Position numbers and translations under genes: made by a program | Notes under the pieces: generated by a model | What the model was told of the DNA's origin: nothing | The model's database searches: none | The model's input: the letters and a program-made list of their open reading frames with translations, nothing else | Origin: Alphaproteobacteria bacterium | Lineage (GTDB): Bacteria > Pseudomonadota > Alphaproteobacteria > Bin65 | Length of the DNA stretch: 47,488 bases | Assembly: GCA_021776685.1 (NCBI GenBank) | Contig: JAJFFJ010000119.1 | Coordinates: 1 to 47,488 of the forward strand | Direction: 5' to 3' | Shown: piece after piece, positions 9,681-18,030 of the stretch | Layout of the letters: each line of letters begins with the position of its first letter | Numbering within the stretch: position 1 is the stretch's first letter

Positions 9681-9717
9681 AAAAAAAAAGAAACCGCCAA
9701 CAATGTCGGCGGTCTCC
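9681..9717 (-). terminator. Rho-independent terminator of the Flp pilin gene
   Basis: On the minus strand a GAGACCGCC/GGCGGTTTC hairpin is followed directly by nine T residues. It lies about 70 nt after the pilin stop codon and separates the highly expressed pilin transcript from the cpa operon downstream. Confidence 0.85.
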
Positions 9718-9784
9718 TTTACTTGGCTTTCTGCGAGGCGGATCCTCCTGGGAGGGTGTCCGCCCGCAGAATCTTGGTTTTGGC

Positions 9785-9979
9785 TTACGGAGTTGGCGCC
9801 GGCGCCGGGGCAGAGGCCGCACCGGTCTGCATCTTCGAAGAGACGTCAGAGAACAGCGCGGACAGCGAGGAGCCCATGGACTCCAGAGCAACAATGCCAG
9901 CAACCGAAACCAAAGCGGCAATCAGGCCATACTCGATGGCCGTCGCGCCGGACTCGTCTGCAAGAAACTTCTTAAACAT
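9785..9979 (-). CDS. Flp-type pilin (major Tad pilin)
   Basis: A 64-residue Flp-family pilin precursor. The start at 9979 gives the classic layout: a short charged leader MFKKFLADESG, then the prepilin peptidase site and ATAIEYGLIAALVSVAGI, with the family's Glu-Tyr pair inside the hydrophobic N-terminal helix. Cleavage by CpaA is expected after the Gly of DESG. The C-terminus is an Ala/Pro-rich tail (SAPAPAPTP), common in alphaproteobacterial Flp pilins. It is on the same strand as cpaA but separated from it by its own terminator, so the pilin is probably transcribed alone at a higher level. Confidence 0.93.
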   Translation of the reverse strand: MFKKFLADESGATAIEYGLIAALVSVAGIVALESMGSSLSALFSDVSSKMQTGAASAPAPAPTP

Positions 9980-10331
9980 AGTGAAACCCTCCACATTGAA
10001 TTTTGCGACCGGCACCACTGCCGGGGCACGGCGCTATCTTCCACATCGGGCGCTAAGGGAATTTCAAAGGATATGGATAATAAATTATAAAAATTCGGCG
10101 CGCAGGCACGACACATAATAATAGGGGAAATATTTTTGCCGCTGATCACCCCGCAGGACATCATCGGCCAACGATCAATAGCCTCAAATACGCCACCCAA
10201 TGATTAACTGAGTGTTTTTTCGCCGTCTTAACGCGGCCCGCCCAGATTGTAGGCAATCATAATAAGGCCAGAGCCCGGGGATAGGGGCACGGCCAGCAAG
10301 AAATGCACATTACACTGGGAGTGTTAATAGC
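9980..10331. other. Divergent promoter region between pilin and TadG-like gene
   Basis: An AT-rich core around 10080-10135 (AATAAATTATAAAAATTC and AATAATAGGGGAAATATTTTT) fits promoters for both divergent genes. The pilin ribosome site AGGG lies just upstream of its ATG. No exact TTAA-N7-TTAA site is seen here. Confidence 0.4.
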
Positions 10332-11765
10332 ATGTTCGGGCTCATCCGGCGGCTGCTGCAGTCGCAATCTGGCTCCAATCTGGCCTACACCGCAGTCATT
10401 ATTGTCCCTCTGATCGGCGCAGTCGGCCTCGGCACCGACGCCGGCCGCGGCTTCATGGTCAAAGCAAAGCTTTCACAGGCCTTGGATTCAGCCGCACTGG
10501 CCGGCGCCAAAGTGGTCCACGACGACGACATGCTCAATCAGGATGTCAATCAGTTCTTCAGTTCGAATTTTCCAAACGGGTACCTGGATGCCGTGGTCAC
10601 CGGCCCCACAATCACGGTGGATGACCAGGCCGAGACCGTCACCCTGCGCGCGTCGGCCACCGTGCCGACGACCTTCATGCGCATCTTCGGCATCAACCAG
10701 ATCACCGTATCAGCCGAAACCGAGGTGACACGCAAAACCTCCTATCTTGATCTTGTCATGTCCATCGACATGTCGGGCTCGATGGGTTGGAGTGCGCCCG
10801 GGGGCGGCACACGAATTGCTGCTGCCCGTGCAGCAGCAGTCGAACTCGTGAACGTGCTGTATGGTGACCTGGAAACCAAAGATCTGCTGAAAATTGGCAT
10901 TGTGCCCTGGAACGCGAAAGTGAACGTTACGATGAACGGCGTCGCTTATTCCGCGGGTTCGAGCCAATGGAACAGCGTCGACTCGTTCAAGAACCCCCTT
11001 ACCAGCGCCAGCCAAAGCCAAGTTTATCAACCCAACAACACGGCCGTCCCGCTTCTTTCCCAGCCACCCGCCAACTGGAAAGGCTGCGTGTACGCCCGGT
11101 ACAAGAATAATGGGGTCGCGGACGACGGTGACTCCACGGCCGGTGATTTCACCCACGCCAATGGCGACTGGGTTGCGTGGGAGCCGATCGGCACAGAAGG
11201 CGAGCCGGTGTCACCGGGCCAATGCAGTGCGGCCGGGGGAAGCGGCAACGAATGCACACCCTGCCTGTCCCACGGCATCGTTCCCTTGGCACAAAGCAAG
11301 TCGTCGACCATGTCATCGATCAACGCGCTGGTCTCGCCAACCGGGTCGACCAATATCGCCCAGGGCCTGGTGTGGGCCTGGCGGGTTCTGATACCCACGG
11401 CGCCCTATACCCAGGCAGACCCCGATCCGGACGGCCCGCGCACCCAGGCCATCGTGTTGCTGACAGATGGCGAGCATGTGGCCGCTTACGGCGACGGCTA
11501 CAAACGGACATGGGGCGGCGGCTCAACGGCCCAGGCACAGATGAATGCACGGCTGCTGGAAATTGCCGGCAACATCAAAGCTCAAGGTATCCTGATCTAT
11601 ACGATCCAGTTCGCCAACGGCGGCGGTGCGCTGCAGGATCTGATGAAGCAGGTGGCCAGCGAACCTGGTGCGCCCTACTACCACTACGCTCCTGACAGCA
11701 ACGCTCTTAAGACAATTTTCACCGAAGTTGCAAATCACTTAGCAAAGCTTCGCATCTCAAAATAG
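10332..11765 (+). CDS. TadG-like pilus protein with von Willebrand A domain (copy 1)
   Basis: A 477-residue TadG/TadE-type protein. Residues 1-20 form a short basic leader ending in GSNLAYT; a hydrophobic helix follows (17-36) with the pattern LAYTAVIIVPLIGAVGLGTD, as in pseudopilin-like Tad proteins. Residues ~140-475 are a vWA domain. Its MIDAS metal site is complete: DMSGS at 146-150, the Thr region PTGSTNIAQGL, and LLTDGEH. An inserted segment has paired cysteines, including a CTPC motif. Such proteins are predicted to anchor or tip the pilus on the cell surface. It is followed at 87 nt by a close paralogue, so the pair is a tandem duplication. The metal-binding prediction is strong; the exact role is inferred. 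Confidence 0.88.
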   Translation: MFGLIRRLLQSQSGSNLAYTAVIIVPLIGAVGLGTDAGRGFMVKAKLSQALDSAALAGAKVVHDDDMLNQDVNQFFSSNFPNGYLDAVVTGPTITVDDQAETVTLRASATVPTTFMRIFGINQITVSAETEVTRKTSYLDLVMSIDMSGSMGWSAPGGGTRIAAARAAAVELVNVLYGDLETKDLLKIGIVPWNAKVNVTMNGVAYSAGSSQWNSVDSFKNPLTSASQSQVYQPNNTAVPLLSQPPANWKGCVYARYKNNGVADDGDSTAGDFTHANGDWVAWEPIGTEGEPVSPGQCSAAGGSGNECTPCLSHGIVPLAQSKSSTMSSINALVSPTGSTNIAQGLVWAWRVLIPTAPYTQADPDPDGPRTQAIVLLTDGEHVAAYGDGYKRTWGGGSTAQAQMNARLLEIAGNIKAQGILIYTIQFANGGGALQDLMKQVASEPGAPYYHYAPDSNALKTIFTEVANHLAKLRISK

Positions 11766-11852
11766 CAACAATAATAATAAGCCAGACCACGCACTAACCA
11801 TCGGAGGAGGGGCGGGCTTGGCACCCGAAATTGTTCCTGGGGGAACTTTGAG

Positions 11853-13274
11853 ATGTTTAGGCTTTTCCGACGCCTTTTCCGTAGCGAAGAGGGGTCCAAC
11901 CTCGCCTACACCGCGTTCATAGCAATTCCACTGATTGGCGCCGTCGGCGTCGGCACTGATGCCGGCCGCGGATATATGCTGCGCGCAAAGCTGAGTCAGG
12001 CACTGGATTCCGCAGCTCTCGCCGGCGCACACAAGACCCACGACAACACTGAGATGGAATCGGATGTTCGCCAGTTCTTCAACGCGAATTTTCCGGCCGG
12101 CTACATGGACGCCACCATCACTGGGCCCACGTTCAGCTATGACAGTGATGAAGATAAGATCACTGTGACGGCCAGCGCATCGATTCCAACATCCTTCATG
12201 CGCATTTTCGGCCACCAGACAATCTCGGTCAGCGCCTCCACAGAGGTGACCCGCCAGACGAACTATATGGATGTGGTCATGTCGATCGACATGTCCGGTT
12301 CGATGAGCTCATCGGCGCCGGGTGGCGGCAGTCGCATCTCTGGTGCACGAACAGCAGCGAAGCTATTGGTCGATCATTTGTTTGGCGACCTCAATACATC
12401 AGAACTCCTCAAAGTCGCTGTGGTTCCCTGGAACGGCAAGGTCAACGTGACGGTCAACGGAACGCCCTACAATCCGGGTTCGAACAATACCACCACCGTC
12501 GATTCGTTCACCAATCCGCTGACGAGTGCCACCCAGAACATCGTCTACAATACAAACCATTCACCAGTACCGCTGTTGAGCGCTCCGCCAAACAACTGGA
12601 GTGGCTGCGTTTATGCGCGGTTCAAGGACAATGGCGTGGATGACGATGCCGACCATGTGGATGGTAGTGTCGCACATGCGAACGGAGACTGGGTTGCGTG
12701 GGAACCGGTTGGCGCCGAGGGCGAACCCAAGTCCCCCGGCGTCTGCACCGCCAGCCCTTACTCGTGGGATGAATGCACGCCCTGCCTGAACAAAGGCATC
12801 TATGCGCTGGCCAGCAACAAGAACCAGGTAAAAGCGTATATCAACGGCCTGACCCAACCTACAGGCACCACCAACATTGCCCAGGGGCTGATGTGGGCGG
12901 CCCGCGTATTGAGCCCCGAGGCGCCATTCACAGAAGCCGATCCGGATCCGGACGGCCCACGCACCCAGGCAATTGTGCTCCTCACCGATGGCTCCCATGT
13001 ACGTGACTATGGCGACGCCTATAAGCGAAGATTGAACACGTCAGAGCTTGACGCACGCCTGCGTCTGATCGCCTCCAACATCAAGGCGAAAGGCATTCTG
13101 GTCTACACGATCCAGTTCGCAAACGGTGGCGGCAGCAGCCAGGAGCAGCTGATGAAGGATGTGGCCAGTGAGCCGAATTCACCCTACTACCACTTCGCGC
13201 CCACGTCCTCGGAGCTGGCCAGTGTGTTCATCGCCATCTCCAAGCACTTGTCGAAACTACGCATCTCCAAATAG
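11853..13274 (+). CDS. TadG-like pilus protein with von Willebrand A domain (copy 2)
   Basis: A 473-residue paralogue of the preceding gene, colinear over its whole length. The N-terminal helix (GSNLAYTAFIAIPLIGAVGV), the MIDAS site DMSGS at 146-150, the GTTNIAQGL and LLTDGSH motifs and the CTPC cysteine pair are all kept, so both copies look functional. Differences cluster in the C-terminal third, for instance a shorter loop after LLTDG. The ribosome site is GGGGGAACTTTGAG before the ATG. A strong terminator follows 37 nt after the stop, so the two genes form a closed plus-strand unit. Confidence 0.88.
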   Translation: MFRLFRRLFRSEEGSNLAYTAFIAIPLIGAVGVGTDAGRGYMLRAKLSQALDSAALAGAHKTHDNTEMESDVRQFFNANFPAGYMDATITGPTFSYDSDEDKITVTASASIPTSFMRIFGHQTISVSASTEVTRQTNYMDVVMSIDMSGSMSSSAPGGGSRISGARTAAKLLVDHLFGDLNTSELLKVAVVPWNGKVNVTVNGTPYNPGSNNTTTVDSFTNPLTSATQNIVYNTNHSPVPLLSAPPNNWSGCVYARFKDNGVDDDADHVDGSVAHANGDWVAWEPVGAEGEPKSPGVCTASPYSWDECTPCLNKGIYALASNKNQVKAYINGLTQPTGTTNIAQGLMWAARVLSPEAPFTEADPDPDGPRTQAIVLLTDGSHVRDYGDAYKRRLNTSELDARLRLIASNIKAKGILVYTIQFANGGGSSQEQLMKDVASEPNSPYYHFAPTSSELASVFIAISKHLSKLRISK

Positions 13275-13815: not shown

Positions 13816-14000
13816 GCACCGGACCAGACGGTGCATCCGGTGAATGGCAACAAAAATGAGATGAGGAACCGAGGCGCTGATCGTTGAGATCAGCGTCCCA
13901 GTCAATGGATCCAGGGGGGCCGTGCCCCCGAACCGCGGTTGGGAAAATGCGATGCGATACACATTGGTGATCCCGATGAAGCTGCCGAGGATCAGCGGGC
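13816..14000 (-). pseudogene. Decayed 3' end of a TadE-like gene plus its downstream hairpin
   Basis: The minus-strand peptide IAFSQPRFGGTAPLDP (about 13906-13960) matches the C-terminus of the intact TadE-like protein at 14299-14853 (IAYFRPRFGATVPLDP). The DNA match runs from the stop region to GCTGCCGAGGATCA near 13990, then breaks off. The matching block downstream of each stop also contains GAGGCGCTGATCGTTGA and a GCACCGGACC...GGTGCATCC hairpin (13816-13834 here, 14182-14202 in the intact copy). Only the tail of the gene remains, so this is the scar of a tandem duplication. Confidence 0.75.
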
Positions 14001-14169
14001 TGGCAGCAGGGTCGGGAGGATCAGCGGGGGCGCCGCCCCCTCACCCCAGATGCGGACGAACGGCCAGACGCAAGACCGTCTCATCTCTGGAGGCCCCCAT
14101 TCCGCCTTTCGGGATTGGTGCGCCGAGGATTCCTGGGCTGTCCGCTGGCAATCGGCGATGCCGATCATG

Positions 14170-14202
14170 CGCAAAAGTGAATGCACCGGACCGGCCGGTG
14201 CA
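14170..14202 (-). terminator. Possible terminator hairpin of the tadE pair
   Basis: An 8-bp TGCACCGG/CCGGTGCA stem about 100 nt after the tadE stop on the minus strand, followed by a weak T-rich stretch (TTCACTTTTG). The hairpin is conserved in the decayed duplicate although the surrounding bases differ, which supports a function. Confidence 0.5.
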
Positions 14203-14298
14203 TCCTGTGAACGGTATTGCTGATAAATTTAATAACCGAGGCGCTGATCGTTGAAGTCGGCGCGCCGGTCTGCTGATCGTTAAGATCAGTGTCGCGGT

Positions 14299-14853
14299 CT
14301 AGGGATCCAGGGGAACTGTGGCTCCGAACCGCGGTCGGAAATAGGCAATGTGATACACATCCGTGATTCCGAGGAAGCTGCCGAGGATCATCGGGTTGTA
14401 GCGATAGTGGACTTCGGCAACGACGACGCTTTCGCCGTCACGGAGAGTAAATCCGGCAGGCAGAGTGGCGACGTTGCCTTCGACGCCGACCACACTGTTC
14501 TTCACAAGTGTTCCACCACCGGCCCGTTGCCAGACGATCGTGTCGTCGCCATTGGTCTGGGTCACCATCGAGACAATGACGAGGCCGTTGGCGGTGAAAT
14601 CATAGGGCGTCATCACTTCCTTTGTGGAACTGAAAATATTGCCCAGTTGGCCGGTGGAAACGGTCTCCGCGCGCGCAACAAGATCACTGGCGGTTGTTGC
14701 CGCACGGTCGAGCTTTTGCCGGACGAGAACGTAGCGCCCAAATTCCATGCCGCCAGTCAGCAACGCGATGATGACCGTCATCGAGATCGCGAATTCGGCG
14801 GAAATCGAGCCGCGCTCCGATCCGCGAAACCGTCTAATCAGTGAAAGCAGCAT
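14299..14853 (-). CDS. TadE/TadF-like pseudopilin
   Basis: A 184-residue TadE-family protein. Residues 1-14 are a basic leader; GSISAEFAISMTVIIALLTGG follows, whose core (SAEFAISMTVIIALL) is the single hydrophobic helix with the conserved Glu of Tad pseudopilins. The rest is a periplasmic domain rich in beta-type sequence. Such proteins are minor pilins processed by CpaA. The ribosome site is GGAG upstream of the ATG. It is 29 nt downstream of a second TadE-like gene and forms a two-gene minus-strand unit with it. A decayed copy of its 3' end lies further downstream. Confidence 0.85.
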   Translation of the reverse strand: MLLSLIRRFRGSERGSISAEFAISMTVIIALLTGGMEFGRYVLVRQKLDRAATTASDLVARAETVSTGQLGNIFSSTKEVMTPYDFTANGLVIVSMVTQTNGDDTIVWQRAGGGTLVKNSVVGVEGNVATLPAGFTLRDGESVVVAEVHYRYNPMILGSFLGITDVYHIAYFRPRFGATVPLDP

Positions 14854-14882
14854 CTGTCTATCTCCGTGGCGAACGATCCCAT

Positions 14883-15458
14883 TTAGAAAGGCTCGTTCTG
14901 TACGACGACGACCGCCGTGAATTCGATCTTGCCGTTTCCGTCACCAACGAGGGGCGCCAGGAAGGGCGTCATCAGGGTGTAGTTGTAGGTGATCTTGTAG
15001 GCGACGATGTCGCCCGGACCGCCGGCGCCATCTTCACCGACATCCGCGTCATAGACGCCATTGCCGTTTTCATCGATGAACGGTTCACCGTCGTCATACT
15101 TACCGTTGGCGTTCTCGTCGGTGAATTTCTCGCCGTCACCAACCCGGTCAAATGCCGGATAAATTTTCGTGGTGATTTTTGTGTCTTCGCCACTGAGGAA
15201 TCCCAGCGTGTGTTCCTGGACGATCTGGGTGATGTGCTCTTCTCGGGTCTTGCCGTCAGGCACAAACCCTGTGATGCCGTATCGTGCCGCTTCGCGCAGG
15301 CCGCCTTCGGCCATCACATTGATGAAAAGCATCATCAAAAGCTCAAGGAAGACAAATCCCACGGTTGTCGCTACAGGCGCGACCAGGGCCCACTCAACCA
15401 TAGCTGCGCCACGATTACAGCGCAGGAACTGGTATGAAAATCTTGCCGCTCGACGCAT
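14883..15458 (-). CDS. TadE-like pseudopilin with calcium-loop insert
   Basis: A 191-residue TadE-family protein. The leader RCNRGAAMVEWALVAPVATT shows the family's N-terminal pattern with the Glu in the hydrophobic helix (residues 18-47). The periplasmic part carries two consecutive acidic loops, DENANGKYDDGE (114-125) and DENGNGVYDADV (129-140), shaped like DxNxNGxxD calcium-binding loops of dockerin or thrombospondin-3 type. Calcium binding is inferred from the pattern only. It is the first gene of the minus-strand tadE pair. The start follows GGGGAAACCCAC. Confidence 0.83.
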   Translation of the reverse strand: MRRAARFSYQFLRCNRGAAMVEWALVAPVATTVGFVFLELLMMLFINVMAEGGLREAARYGITGFVPDGKTREEHITQIVQEHTLGFLSGEDTKITTKIYPAFDRVGDGEKFTDENANGKYDDGEPFIDENGNGVYDADVGEDGAGGPGDIVAYKITYNYTLMTPFLAPLVGDGNGKIEFTAVVVVQNEPF

Positions 15459-15559
15459 GTGGGTTTCCCCAATAGGTTGGTTTCAACCGGCGAACTAATA
15501 GTGTCCGGCAAAACTTGAATGCGTCTGAAAATCTAGTCGCCGCGCTTTAACAATCCCCT

Positions 15560-15756
15560 AGTCCCGATGGCTAACCAATCGTGGACTCAGATGGTTAATG
15601 GCTGGTTTGGCACGGAAACCAGCCGTTCATGCTGGGTTCAGGTTGGCAGCGGCATAGTCGCTGCGTGTCACGTTGGCGGGCCCGTTTGGTATCAGCATCG
15701 CTGTTCCCTACCCGCCGATTTCTTTGAACGGCAGGCTTCGGCCTGCCGTTTTTTTT
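15560..15756 (+). ncRNA. Candidate structured small RNA ending in a terminator
   Basis: No protein gene lies on this strand between 13274 and 16270, yet there is a strong plus-strand terminator at 15727-15756. The 160 nt before it fold into a series of stems: TAACCA/TGGTTA (15572-15597), GGCTGGTTT/AAACCAGCC (15600-15624), GCAGCG/CGCTGC (15646-15664) and GGCGGG/CCCGCC (15675-15716). It lies next to rpsU. It lacks the SRP RNA core motif and is not a tRNA. A 6S-like RNA or a lineage-specific sRNA is possible. The 5' end is a guess. Confidence 0.5.
15727..15756 (+). terminator. Rho-independent terminator on the plus strand
   Basis: A perfect CGGCAGGC-TTCG-GCCTGCCG stem with a stable UUCG tetraloop followed by eight T residues. 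There is no matching T-run on the minus strand, so it does not serve rpsU. It is the 3' end of the candidate small RNA. Confidence 0.9.
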
Positions 15757-15870
15757 GCCCAGGTCTTTTCGGAGAGCGGACAAACGGTAATGGCCGGCCC
15801 AGGTACCTGGGCCGGCTTATAGTCTAAATTGACCTGACGAAACGGATCTGTGCCGGGCTGACGCCCGAAA

Positions 15871-16077
15871 TCAGAAGCCTTCGCGCTCCAGGCGCTTACG
15901 GGCCAGTTTGCGGGCGCGTCTAATCGCCTCCGCCTTTTCCCGCGCGCGTCGCTCGGACGGCTTCTCATAGTTGCGGCGCAGCTTCATCTCGCGAAAGACA
16001 CCTTCGCGCTGCATCTTCTTTTTCAGGGCCTTGAGGGCCTGGTCAACGTTGTTGTCCCGTACGATTACCTGAACGAT
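15871..16077 (-). CDS. rpsU: 30S ribosomal protein S21, apparent ATC start
   Basis: A 68-residue S21 protein of the small ribosomal subunit. Family blocks are all present: [37 protein letters not shown] and the basic [16 protein letters not shown] end. The conserved N-terminus VQVIVRDNN is preceded by ATC, and an in-frame TGA stands seven codons before that ATC with no ATG, GTG or TTG between. A GGAGA ribosome site lies 7 nt before the ATC. The first internal ATG would remove the conserved first 21 residues. I therefore call ATC as the start, unless there is a sequence error. It is divergent from a COQ9-family gene, the arrangement after which that family was first named. Confidence 0.88.
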
Positions 16078-16269
16078 GGGTCTGTCTCCATGTCATATGC
16101 CAGCGTGGACTGGCCAGCGCCCCGCTGCCCACTGGCGATTGCGACGCGATTTGTCTAGGATCAAAAAGCGGCCGTTCGGTTTCCCGAACCAGCCGCATTG
16201 CCAAATTAGTATCACAATGCGCTGGAATTGTGAAGGCCTACGCAACTTCCTGCCGCACCGAGCAAGACC

Positions 16270-16950
16270 ATGAGCGATCATACCCACAGTCCCGACGCGC
16301 AGAATGACGCCCGATTGGAGCGCTTTCTGGACGCTGTCGTCGGGCACGTCCCGTTCGATGGCTGGTCCCGCCGGGCGATCGAAAAAGCCATAGAAGACCT
16401 CGGAATCGCATCGGAAGATGTAGGGACCCTGCCTGCAACCAGCCTCGGTGCCCTGAAGGAATGGAGTTTTCTTGTGGACCGCCGGATGCTGGCGCGCATA
16501 GCGGACGAGTTCGAAGCGACGGACAGAGTACGGGACAAAGTCGTATTGGGAGTCCGGGCTCGGCTTGAACTTCTCGCCCCTGACAAAGAAGCAGTACGCC
16601 GCGCGGCCGTGATCCTCGCACTGCCCCAAAATATGCTTGCCTCAATGCGATGCGTGCACCACACCGTCGACGCGATTTGGTATGCTGCCGGCGATACGGC
16701 CACAGACTACAACTACTATACCAAGCGCGGCCTGTTAGCCTCGGTTTATGTACCGACCCTGTTGTACTGGCTTTCGGACAGCTCACCGGACAAAGCCAAT
16801 ACCTGGCAGTTTTTAGGCCGTCGTATTGATAGTGTGATGAAGATACCGGGCAGCCTATCGAGCCTGCGAAACCGTTTCGGCTCGCTTTCGGGGCCAGCGG
16901 AATTTCTGCAAAAGCTCAGGCGATCACAACGCTGGACATACCGCTACTGA
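16270..16950 (+). CDS. COQ9-family protein (ubiquinone biosynthesis)
   Basis: A 226-residue COQ9 family protein (also known as 'rpsU-divergently transcribed' family). COQ9 binds lipids and helps present ubiquinone precursors to the hydroxylase COQ7. The family's core is visible: the N-terminal FLDAVVGHVPFDGWSRRAI, the middle VHHTVDAIWYAAGDTATDYNYYTKRGLLA (core DYNYYTKRG), and a C-terminal LDRRIDSVMKIPG-like segment reading LGRRIDSVMKIPG. Divergent placement from rpsU, with 192 nt between the two starts, agrees with this. Full length for the bacterial members. Confidence 0.92.
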   Translation: MSDHTHSPDAQNDARLERFLDAVVGHVPFDGWSRRAIEKAIEDLGIASEDVGTLPATSLGALKEWSFLVDRRMLARIADEFEATDRVRDKVVLGVRARLELLAPDKEAVRRAAVILALPQNMLASMRCVHHTVDAIWYAAGDTATDYNYYTKRGLLASVYVPTLLYWLSDSSPDKANTWQFLGRRIDSVMKIPGSLSSLRNRFGSLSGPAEFLQKLRRSQRWTYRY

Positions 16951-16971
16951 CTGCATTTGCTCGCGGGCCGG

Positions 16972-18030
16972 CTAGGTACGTGGGCGCAGCATCGTGATGT
17001 GCCCCATCTTTCGCCCGGCGCGGGCTTCGGATTTTCCATAGAGATGCACGCAAGTGCCCGGCTGTGAAAGGCTATCGGATACCATCGATGCTTCATTACC
17101 GAGAAGATTGAGCATTTCCGCATCTGAATGGCGTTGCGGATCGCCCAGCGGCAGATCCACAACTGCGCGCACCAACTGCTCAAACTGGCTCACGGTGCAG
17201 GCATCGATTGTCCAGTGTCCGGAATTATGCGGCCGCGGCGCGATTTCATTGACCATCAAGGTGCCATCTTCGAGCAGGAAAAATTCGACGGCGAGCAAGC
17301 CAACCAGATCGAGAGCAGACGCCAGCCTGGCCCCTATTTCCTGCGCCTGTGAAGCTACAGCAGGAGAAATCGCCGCCGGCGCCAGCGTTCGTCGAAGGAT
17401 GTGGTTTTCGTGATGATTTTCCATCACATCATAGGCGCGACAGGCACCGTCTAGGCCACGGCCAACAATTACCGAGACTTCCTTTTCGAATGGCACAAAG
17501 CCTTCGAGAATACAGGGAACGCCGCCCACCTCCTCCCAGGCAAGCGGCGCATCGCCGGATTGGTTGAGGCGGGTCTGACCCTTACCATCGTAGCCCAGCC
17601 GTCGGGATTTTAGGATCGCCGGCCCGCCAATATCCTGGAATGCCCTACCCAGTTCATCGAGTGAACCGACCTGGCGATACGGCGCCGTTGCGATGCCCAA
17701 ATCGTTGGCAAAGGTTTTCTCCAACAGTCGATCTTGGGCAACTTCAAGACATCTCGCGCCGGGACGCACGGCGACCAACTCCGTTAGCGCCCGGACCGCA
17801 TCCAGCGGCACGTTCTCGAACTCGAGTGTCACCGCATCAACTTTTGCTGCAAGCACCGCCGCCGCCTGCGAGTCGTTCCAGGGCGCAACAATGGTTTCAG
17901 CGGCCACCTGGGATGCAGGCGAATCGGCGTCAGGGGTCCAGACCACACAGGGAATTCCAAGCCGCGCTGCCGCCATGGCGGTCATGCGCCCCAGCTGTCC
18001 GCCGCCCAAAATTCCAAGCGTGGCGCCCAT
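16972..18030 (-). CDS. purK: 5-(carboxyamino)imidazole ribonucleotide synthase PurK
   Basis: A 352-residue ATP-grasp enzyme that makes N5-CAIR from AIR, ATP and bicarbonate in purine synthesis. The start at 18030 puts the nucleotide-binding motif LGILGGGQLGRM at the N-terminus; an open extension upstream runs back into purE and is rejected. Family motifs seen: VVWTPDADSPASQ, ILKSRRLGYDGKGQ, the ATP-grasp EVSVIVGR block and MVNEIAPRPHNSGHWTIDA (core NEIAPRPHNSGHW). It follows purE by 34 nt in the normal purE-purK order. Confidence 0.95.
   Translation of the reverse strand: MGATLGILGGGQLGRMTAMAAARLGIPCVVWTPDADSPASQVAAETIVAPWNDSQAAAVLAAKVDAVTLEFENVPLDAVRALTELVAVRPGARCLEVAQDRLLEKTFANDLGIATAPYRQVGSLDELGRAFQDIGGPAILKSRRLGYDGKGQTRLNQSGDAPLAWEEVGGVPCILEGFVPFEKEVSVIVGRGLDGACRAYDVMENHHENHILRRTLAPAAISPAVASQAQEIGARLASALDLVGLLAVEFFLLEDGTLMVNEIAPRPHNSGHWTIDACTVSQFEQLVRAVVDLPLGDPQRHSDAEMLNLLGNEASMVSDSLSQPGTCVHLYGKSEARAGRKMGHITMLRPRT

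Follow-up and report, generated by a model that had tools for sequence, protein, structure and literature searches.

The closest described counterparts of the element considered here are small RNAs (sRNAs) of Sinorhizobium meliloti, for the finding of which orphan terminators were used together with other signs (PMC2573895). These sRNAs are intergenic and non-coding, each with a Rho-independent terminator that belongs to no gene, and the share of false predictions is stated there to be unclear. Our candidate is likewise intergenic, of similar size and non-coding in sequence, and carries a strong Rho-independent terminator belonging to no coding gene, but it differs in being predicted from sequence and in showing no conservation that could be found within its family. 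A literature search for alphaproteobacterial small RNAs adjacent to rpsU returned a single paper, on enterobacteria. Our essential contention, held with moderate confidence, is that the locus is best read as a plus-strand gene for an sRNA that is specific to this lineage and ends at its own intrinsic terminator, because the terminator is both strong and orphan, the sequence has a non-coding character and the long hairpin preceding the terminator is biased towards the plus strand.

The window, by which we mean the whole stretch of DNA analysed, is one entire contig of 47,488 bases in a 4.54 Mb genome of 158 contigs, and it was compared with 10 related genomes, which belong to three other genera of its family. 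To the left of the candidate is a Tad pilus locus, whose minus-strand TadE-like genes reach position 15458; the last of these (14883-15458; PF07811) is transcribed away from the candidate. To the right is rpsU (15871-16077, minus strand; PF01165), which is convergent with it, and beyond rpsU stand COQ9 on the plus strand and then purK/purE on the minus strand. In the intervening gap of 412 bases (15459-15870), which tadE leaves leftward and rpsU enters from the right, the plus strand has no evident gene; since both neighbours lie on the minus strand, a plus-strand transcript would have no other evident use. A perfect 24-base palindrome, GCCGGCCCAGGTACCTGGGCCGGC, occupies positions 15793-15816 between the terminator and rpsU.

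The terminator itself (15726-15756, plus strand) reads GAACGGCAGGC-UUCG-GCCUGCCGUUU followed by eight U residues, with a hairpin at 15726-15751 of 11 base pairs, seven of them G-C, and a tail that extends to 15756. A strict scan, requiring a Watson-Crick stem of at least 8 pairs and at least six T in eight, picked out three positions in the 47 kb (13311, 15727 and 30136, the last on both strands), while 30 sequences drawn from an order-2 Markov model put the chance level at 0.03 per strand (stems of at least 9). A loose scan of 14000-17500 found three sites against 3.7 in shuffled sequences, so it is the quality of the terminator and not the number of such hairpins that exceeds chance. Read on the minus strand, the hairpin lacks a U tract, which makes it unlikely to be the terminator of rpsU. 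The sequence-only reading, in which a plus-strand terminator with a UUCG loop was said to have no protein gene to end, is borne out on both counts: the terminator is real, and neither open reading frames, Pfam matches nor codon statistics place the end of a plus-strand protein gene there.

The sole open reading frame that passes through the terminator starts at an ATG and runs for 86 codons (15567-15827), and one might suppose that it is translated into a small protein, with the terminator serving as an internal attenuator. Weak matches to it were indeed obtained in nine genomes besides its own among 385 of the class (E 0.0014 to 0.01 per genome), but the seven such loci that we inspected were short, mutually unlike and in some cases interrupted by stops. 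Furthermore, GC-content hardly varies among the three codon positions (0.57, 0.55, 0.57), the codon log-likelihood score is -0.05 compared with 0.11 to 0.29 in four genes nearby (the training set included three of them), and no stretch resembling a Shine-Dalgarno sequence precedes the ATG. With a non-coding composition, no Pfam match and no credible homologue, and with a frame that crosses the terminator, a protein product was rejected, and we consider translation of this frame extremely improbable.

Turning to the structure of the stretch ahead of the terminator, four good stems had been claimed within 160 nt; three of these are robust, while the fourth is a weak 5-bp hairpin at 15559-15573. 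The first robust element is a long imperfect hairpin (15575-15646, plus strand) of 30 pairs, five of them G-U, with a GGCACGG loop at 15609-15615; it is followed by a second hairpin of 8 bp with an AUA loop (15646-15664) and a third with the base GGCGGG...CCCGCC (15672-15719). Between the third hairpin and the terminator is a predicted single-stranded UUCUUU (15720-15725, unpaired probability >0.6). The whole stretch folds with a z-score of -5.69 when the terminator is included and -3.28 when it is not, the latter being equalled or bettered by 8 of 380 sliding windows of equal length on both strands (20 shuffles each). When the 5' arm (15560-15598) is removed along with the terminator, the z-score rises to -1.65 and 16 of 200 shuffles fold equally well; the two stems other than the long hairpin are ordinary, and the fold without the terminator and outer 5' arm is unremarkable.

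The fold signal comes from the one long hairpin. Its z-score (86 bases from 15575) is -5.1 on the plus strand with 300 shuffles and -1.4 on the minus strand, and among 1186 sliding windows only four have as low a z-score and 11 as low an energy, although the test window was fitted to the hairpin and the comparison windows were not. The G-U pairs indicate that the fold is a property of the plus strand and not simply a palindrome in the DNA, and, the terminator apart, nothing speaks more strongly for a plus-strand RNA than this predicted strand-specificity. It also bears on whether the stems might instead belong to a minus-strand transcript, either the 5' leader of tadE or the 3' part of the rpsU transcript; such a transcript could cross the region, given that both neighbours are on that strand, yet the minus-strand fold is weaker (z-score -2.30 for 15560-15725, besides the value for the long hairpin) and only on the plus strand does the terminator have a U tract, so that we find this explanation scarcely credible.

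No known RNA family accounts for the stretch. A search of the whole window with Rfam 15 produced no match at gathering threshold, SRP RNA included, and ARAGORN found no tRNA or tmRNA; the absence of an SRP or tRNA identity, already suspected from the letters, agrees with this, while the 6S and alphaproteobacterial sRNA families that had been proposed for comparison did not reach threshold. A permissive search of 410 bases returned 14 matches at E ≤10, none near gathering, and the best of them rest mostly on the terminator; none was accepted. Among these, the suhB/mmgR family (RF00519) matches weakly at 15687-15763 (19.2 bits against a gathering score of 41, E 0.12), mainly through the terminator and a C-rich stretch, but that stretch is single-stranded in the model and partly paired within the third hairpin of the candidate. 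Xoo2 (RF02241) matches at 15676-15755 with 23.2 bits (gathering 45, E 0.021), again mainly by the terminator. BASRCII26 (RF02603) has a hairpin, GGCAGGCUUCGGCCUGCC, in common with the candidate and scores 24.4 bits (E 0.00035) where gathering is 218; essentially this hairpin alone matches, and it stands at the 5' end of the model but at the end of the RNA in the candidate.

The 6S RNA is a rod with a central bubble, and the candidate, although of a like length class, is a row of separate hairpins; we rejected 6S (RF00013) as its identity, the model having no match in this genome even at E 10. As a separate matter, 6S RNA was detected in none of 11 genomes (this one and its family), while a Caulobacter control was positive, which implies that 6S has either been lost in the family or diverged too far for the model; its absence may reflect the reach of the model in this family as much as the locus.

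In considering whether the RNA has relatives, we began from the proposition that, as its neighbourhood (rpsU, COQ9, purEK) is conserved, the RNA might be too. BLAST against 61 genomes (60 others) recovered the copy in this genome and one match confined to the terminator, and against 11 genomes of the order the same copy and one match of 18 bases; plasmids and phages yielded nothing, nor did an exact 25-base core among viral contigs. A covariance model of 147 positions, built from the single sequence given twice (effective number 0.56), gave matches at E ≤0.1 in four of 385 genomes of the class (384 others), one of the four being the genome of the candidate itself, under stricter filters by which only 8 candidates were scored in most genomes. 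With all candidates scored, seven of the 11 family genomes had matches at E ≤5, again including that of the candidate, and 11 of the places matched were foreign; none of the foreign family matches was on a contig with an rpsU or tadE locus. Six of the best foreign matches were inspected, and every one falls within or overlaps a long open frame, although DNA of this kind has many such frames. When the model was run on 47 loci around rpsU-COQ9, tadE and aroQ, it found eight matches, none above 14.5 bits; one overlies the end of rpsU in a family locus (L004).

Two of the matches to the model (L054 and L062) contain a common stretch that reads, we presume, like a membrane pyrophosphatase. The likeness of the window to it extends over 12 residues only and an intact H_PPase is present elsewhere in the genome, and a fossil of a pyrophosphatase gene was consequently dismissed as coincidence. 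On the basis of these searches there is no credible homologue of the RNA in the genomes covered, hence no covariation to draw upon, and the idea of an RNA with a structure conserved in relatives fails for those genomes.

The neighbourhood is conserved on one side only. Among 43 loci fetched by COQ9, rpsU stands divergently beside it in 41; purE or purK is within the retrieved stretch in 11, and a tad gene in none (flanks of 1.5-3 kb). The claim of a conserved neighbourhood therefore stands for rpsU-COQ9 and not for the tad side, and the argument from it to a conserved RNA fails, neither BLAST nor the covariance model having produced a credible relative. Of the 10 other family genomes, three have homologues of tadE (51-52% identity), and there tadE faces what we take to be aroQ-accB(-accC) divergently over 0.3-0.7 kb; the junction of tad with rpsU is thus not common to them, and none of the three tadE-aroQ gaps has a comparable terminator. 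In our genome aroQ has its homologue on a separate contig, next to a gene that is presumably decarboxylase-like, and these comparisons suggest that the border of the tad locus has been rearranged.

Such a possible history gives rise to the main rival of the sRNA reading, namely that the tad and rpsU loci were brought together by a rearrangement in this lineage and the terminator is a relic at the junction, left over from a plus-strand gene that was once convergent with rpsU, and that the hairpins are due to chance or decay and serve no RNA function. It gains from the different placing of aroQ in the relatives and in this genome, from the ordinary character of the fold apart from the terminator and outer arm, and from the long plus-strand open frames (called genes by eye only) that end approximately 75-294 nt from rpsU in five of nine family loci, L004 among them. 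However, a comparable terminator was found in none of those nine loci when up to 600 bases beyond rpsU were scanned, no protein remnant could be detected in the stretch, neither the terminator nor its U tract shows decay, and the long hairpin favours one strand; on this evidence we regard a relic as possible but unlikely. Of 32 other rpsU loci, two have a hairpin with 5-6 T after rpsU.

Several other features of the window deserve description in their own right. The position at which rpsU would begin (16075-16077, minus strand) is an invariant ATC in the window and nine family loci, that is 10 of 11 genomes, the eleventh having given no locus; it is preceded 7-9 bases earlier by GGAG and followed by GTT or GTC. 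In the window an in-frame TGA comes shortly before it and no ATG, GTG or TTG intervenes, whereas four of the 10 have a TTG in frame 6-18 codons upstream, before the GGAG. Outside the family, GTG or ATG is found one codon later in all 32 loci. Judged by sequence, rpsU appears to start at AUC across four genera; a conserved AUC start would be unusual and may point to translational control of rpsU (bS21). Literature searches found nothing on an AUC start of rpsU; one paper deals with bS21 and the Shine-Dalgarno sequence of rpsU in Flavobacterium (PMC9976891). Elsewhere in the window, at 9685-10018, a gene that by eye resembles a Flp pilin (9785-10018, minus strand) has a long hairpin behind it, together with a U-rich terminator; the fold there has a z-score of -7.8, the lowest of 1186 windows, and no Rfam match at E ≤1. 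Two similar TadG-like genes lie in tandem on the plus strand at 10332-13274; the second has VWA and Tad matches in Pfam, and the first was identified by inspection.

In its 5' arm the long hairpin overlaps candidate upstream sites of tadE (15547-15598, minus strand), arranged as TTAACCAT-N16-TTAGCCAT-N16-TTAA with a 24-bp period and located at 15598, 15574 and 15550 respectively; we take TTAACCAT to be CtrA-like. If these sites are real, the first arm of the RNA overlaps the control region of tadE. An alternative is then that 15547-15598 is regulatory DNA to which a regulator of tadE binds, the CtrA-like half sites forming a direct repeat on the minus strand and the stems being a by-product. 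TTAACCAT is found upstream of tadE in three of four genomes and TTARSCAT-N15-GTTAA in all four, and a degenerate form of the pattern occurs once in the 4.5 Mb genome and in none of the controls, but it was derived from the very sequences in which it was counted. An unbiased test with a 28-column block in three sequences gave 12 invariant columns compared with a shuffle mean of 12.05; an operator common to four genomes was accordingly not accepted, being visible by eye and no better than shuffles, and the sites remain candidates. CtrA does drive pilin genes in Caulobacter, with the consensus TTAA-N7-TTAA (PMC11264516). That spacing is unlike the 24-bp period seen here, and our literature search found no paper joining TTAACCAT, CtrA and the pilus. 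Regulatory DNA would also leave the terminator unexplained, and as the whole explanation of the locus we think it improbable.

In proposing how the sRNA might operate, transcription would proceed from the plus strand, beginning between approximately 15555 and 15600 and ending at the terminator at 15756, to give an RNA of about 160-200 nt. A weak promoter-like sequence, CTGAAA-N18-AACAAT (15525-15554, plus strand), would place the start near 15561; it is in the top 0.18% of window positions by an ad hoc score, for which approximately 0.5 would be expected in 281 positions, and a promoter scan picked up none on the plus strand, this candidate included. Hfq commonly acts on sRNAs at a U-rich stretch and at the U tail, and UUCUUU together with the terminal U tract forms a candidate Hfq-binding module. 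The RNA might then act in the ordinary trans-acting manner, with Hfq holding this module and the exposed GGCACGG, GUGUCAC and CCCGUUU available for pairing with targets. Duplex energies computed against seven nearby start regions were within 1.5 sd of shuffles except for purE, at nearly 3 sd below; with seven regions tried and mono-nucleotide shuffles, we do not trust purE as a target.

As the 5' half of the sRNA lies over the candidate tadE sites, it may, speculatively, be co-regulated with the Tad pilus genes. An extension of this thought, which we offer as a long shot, is that the sRNA gene is newborn from the joining of tad and rpsU, that its promoter region is common with the regulator sites of tadE, and that its production either accompanies or replaces that of the Tad pilus, the RNA adjusting the pilus or another target post-transcriptionally.

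The locus is an example of how an orphan terminator and a conserved gene next to it can give a false impression of conservation. The RNA would be of an ordinary kind and opens no long-standing question; if transcribed, it would represent one more species-specific bacterial sRNA, situated beside a pilus locus, and would be useful for annotation.
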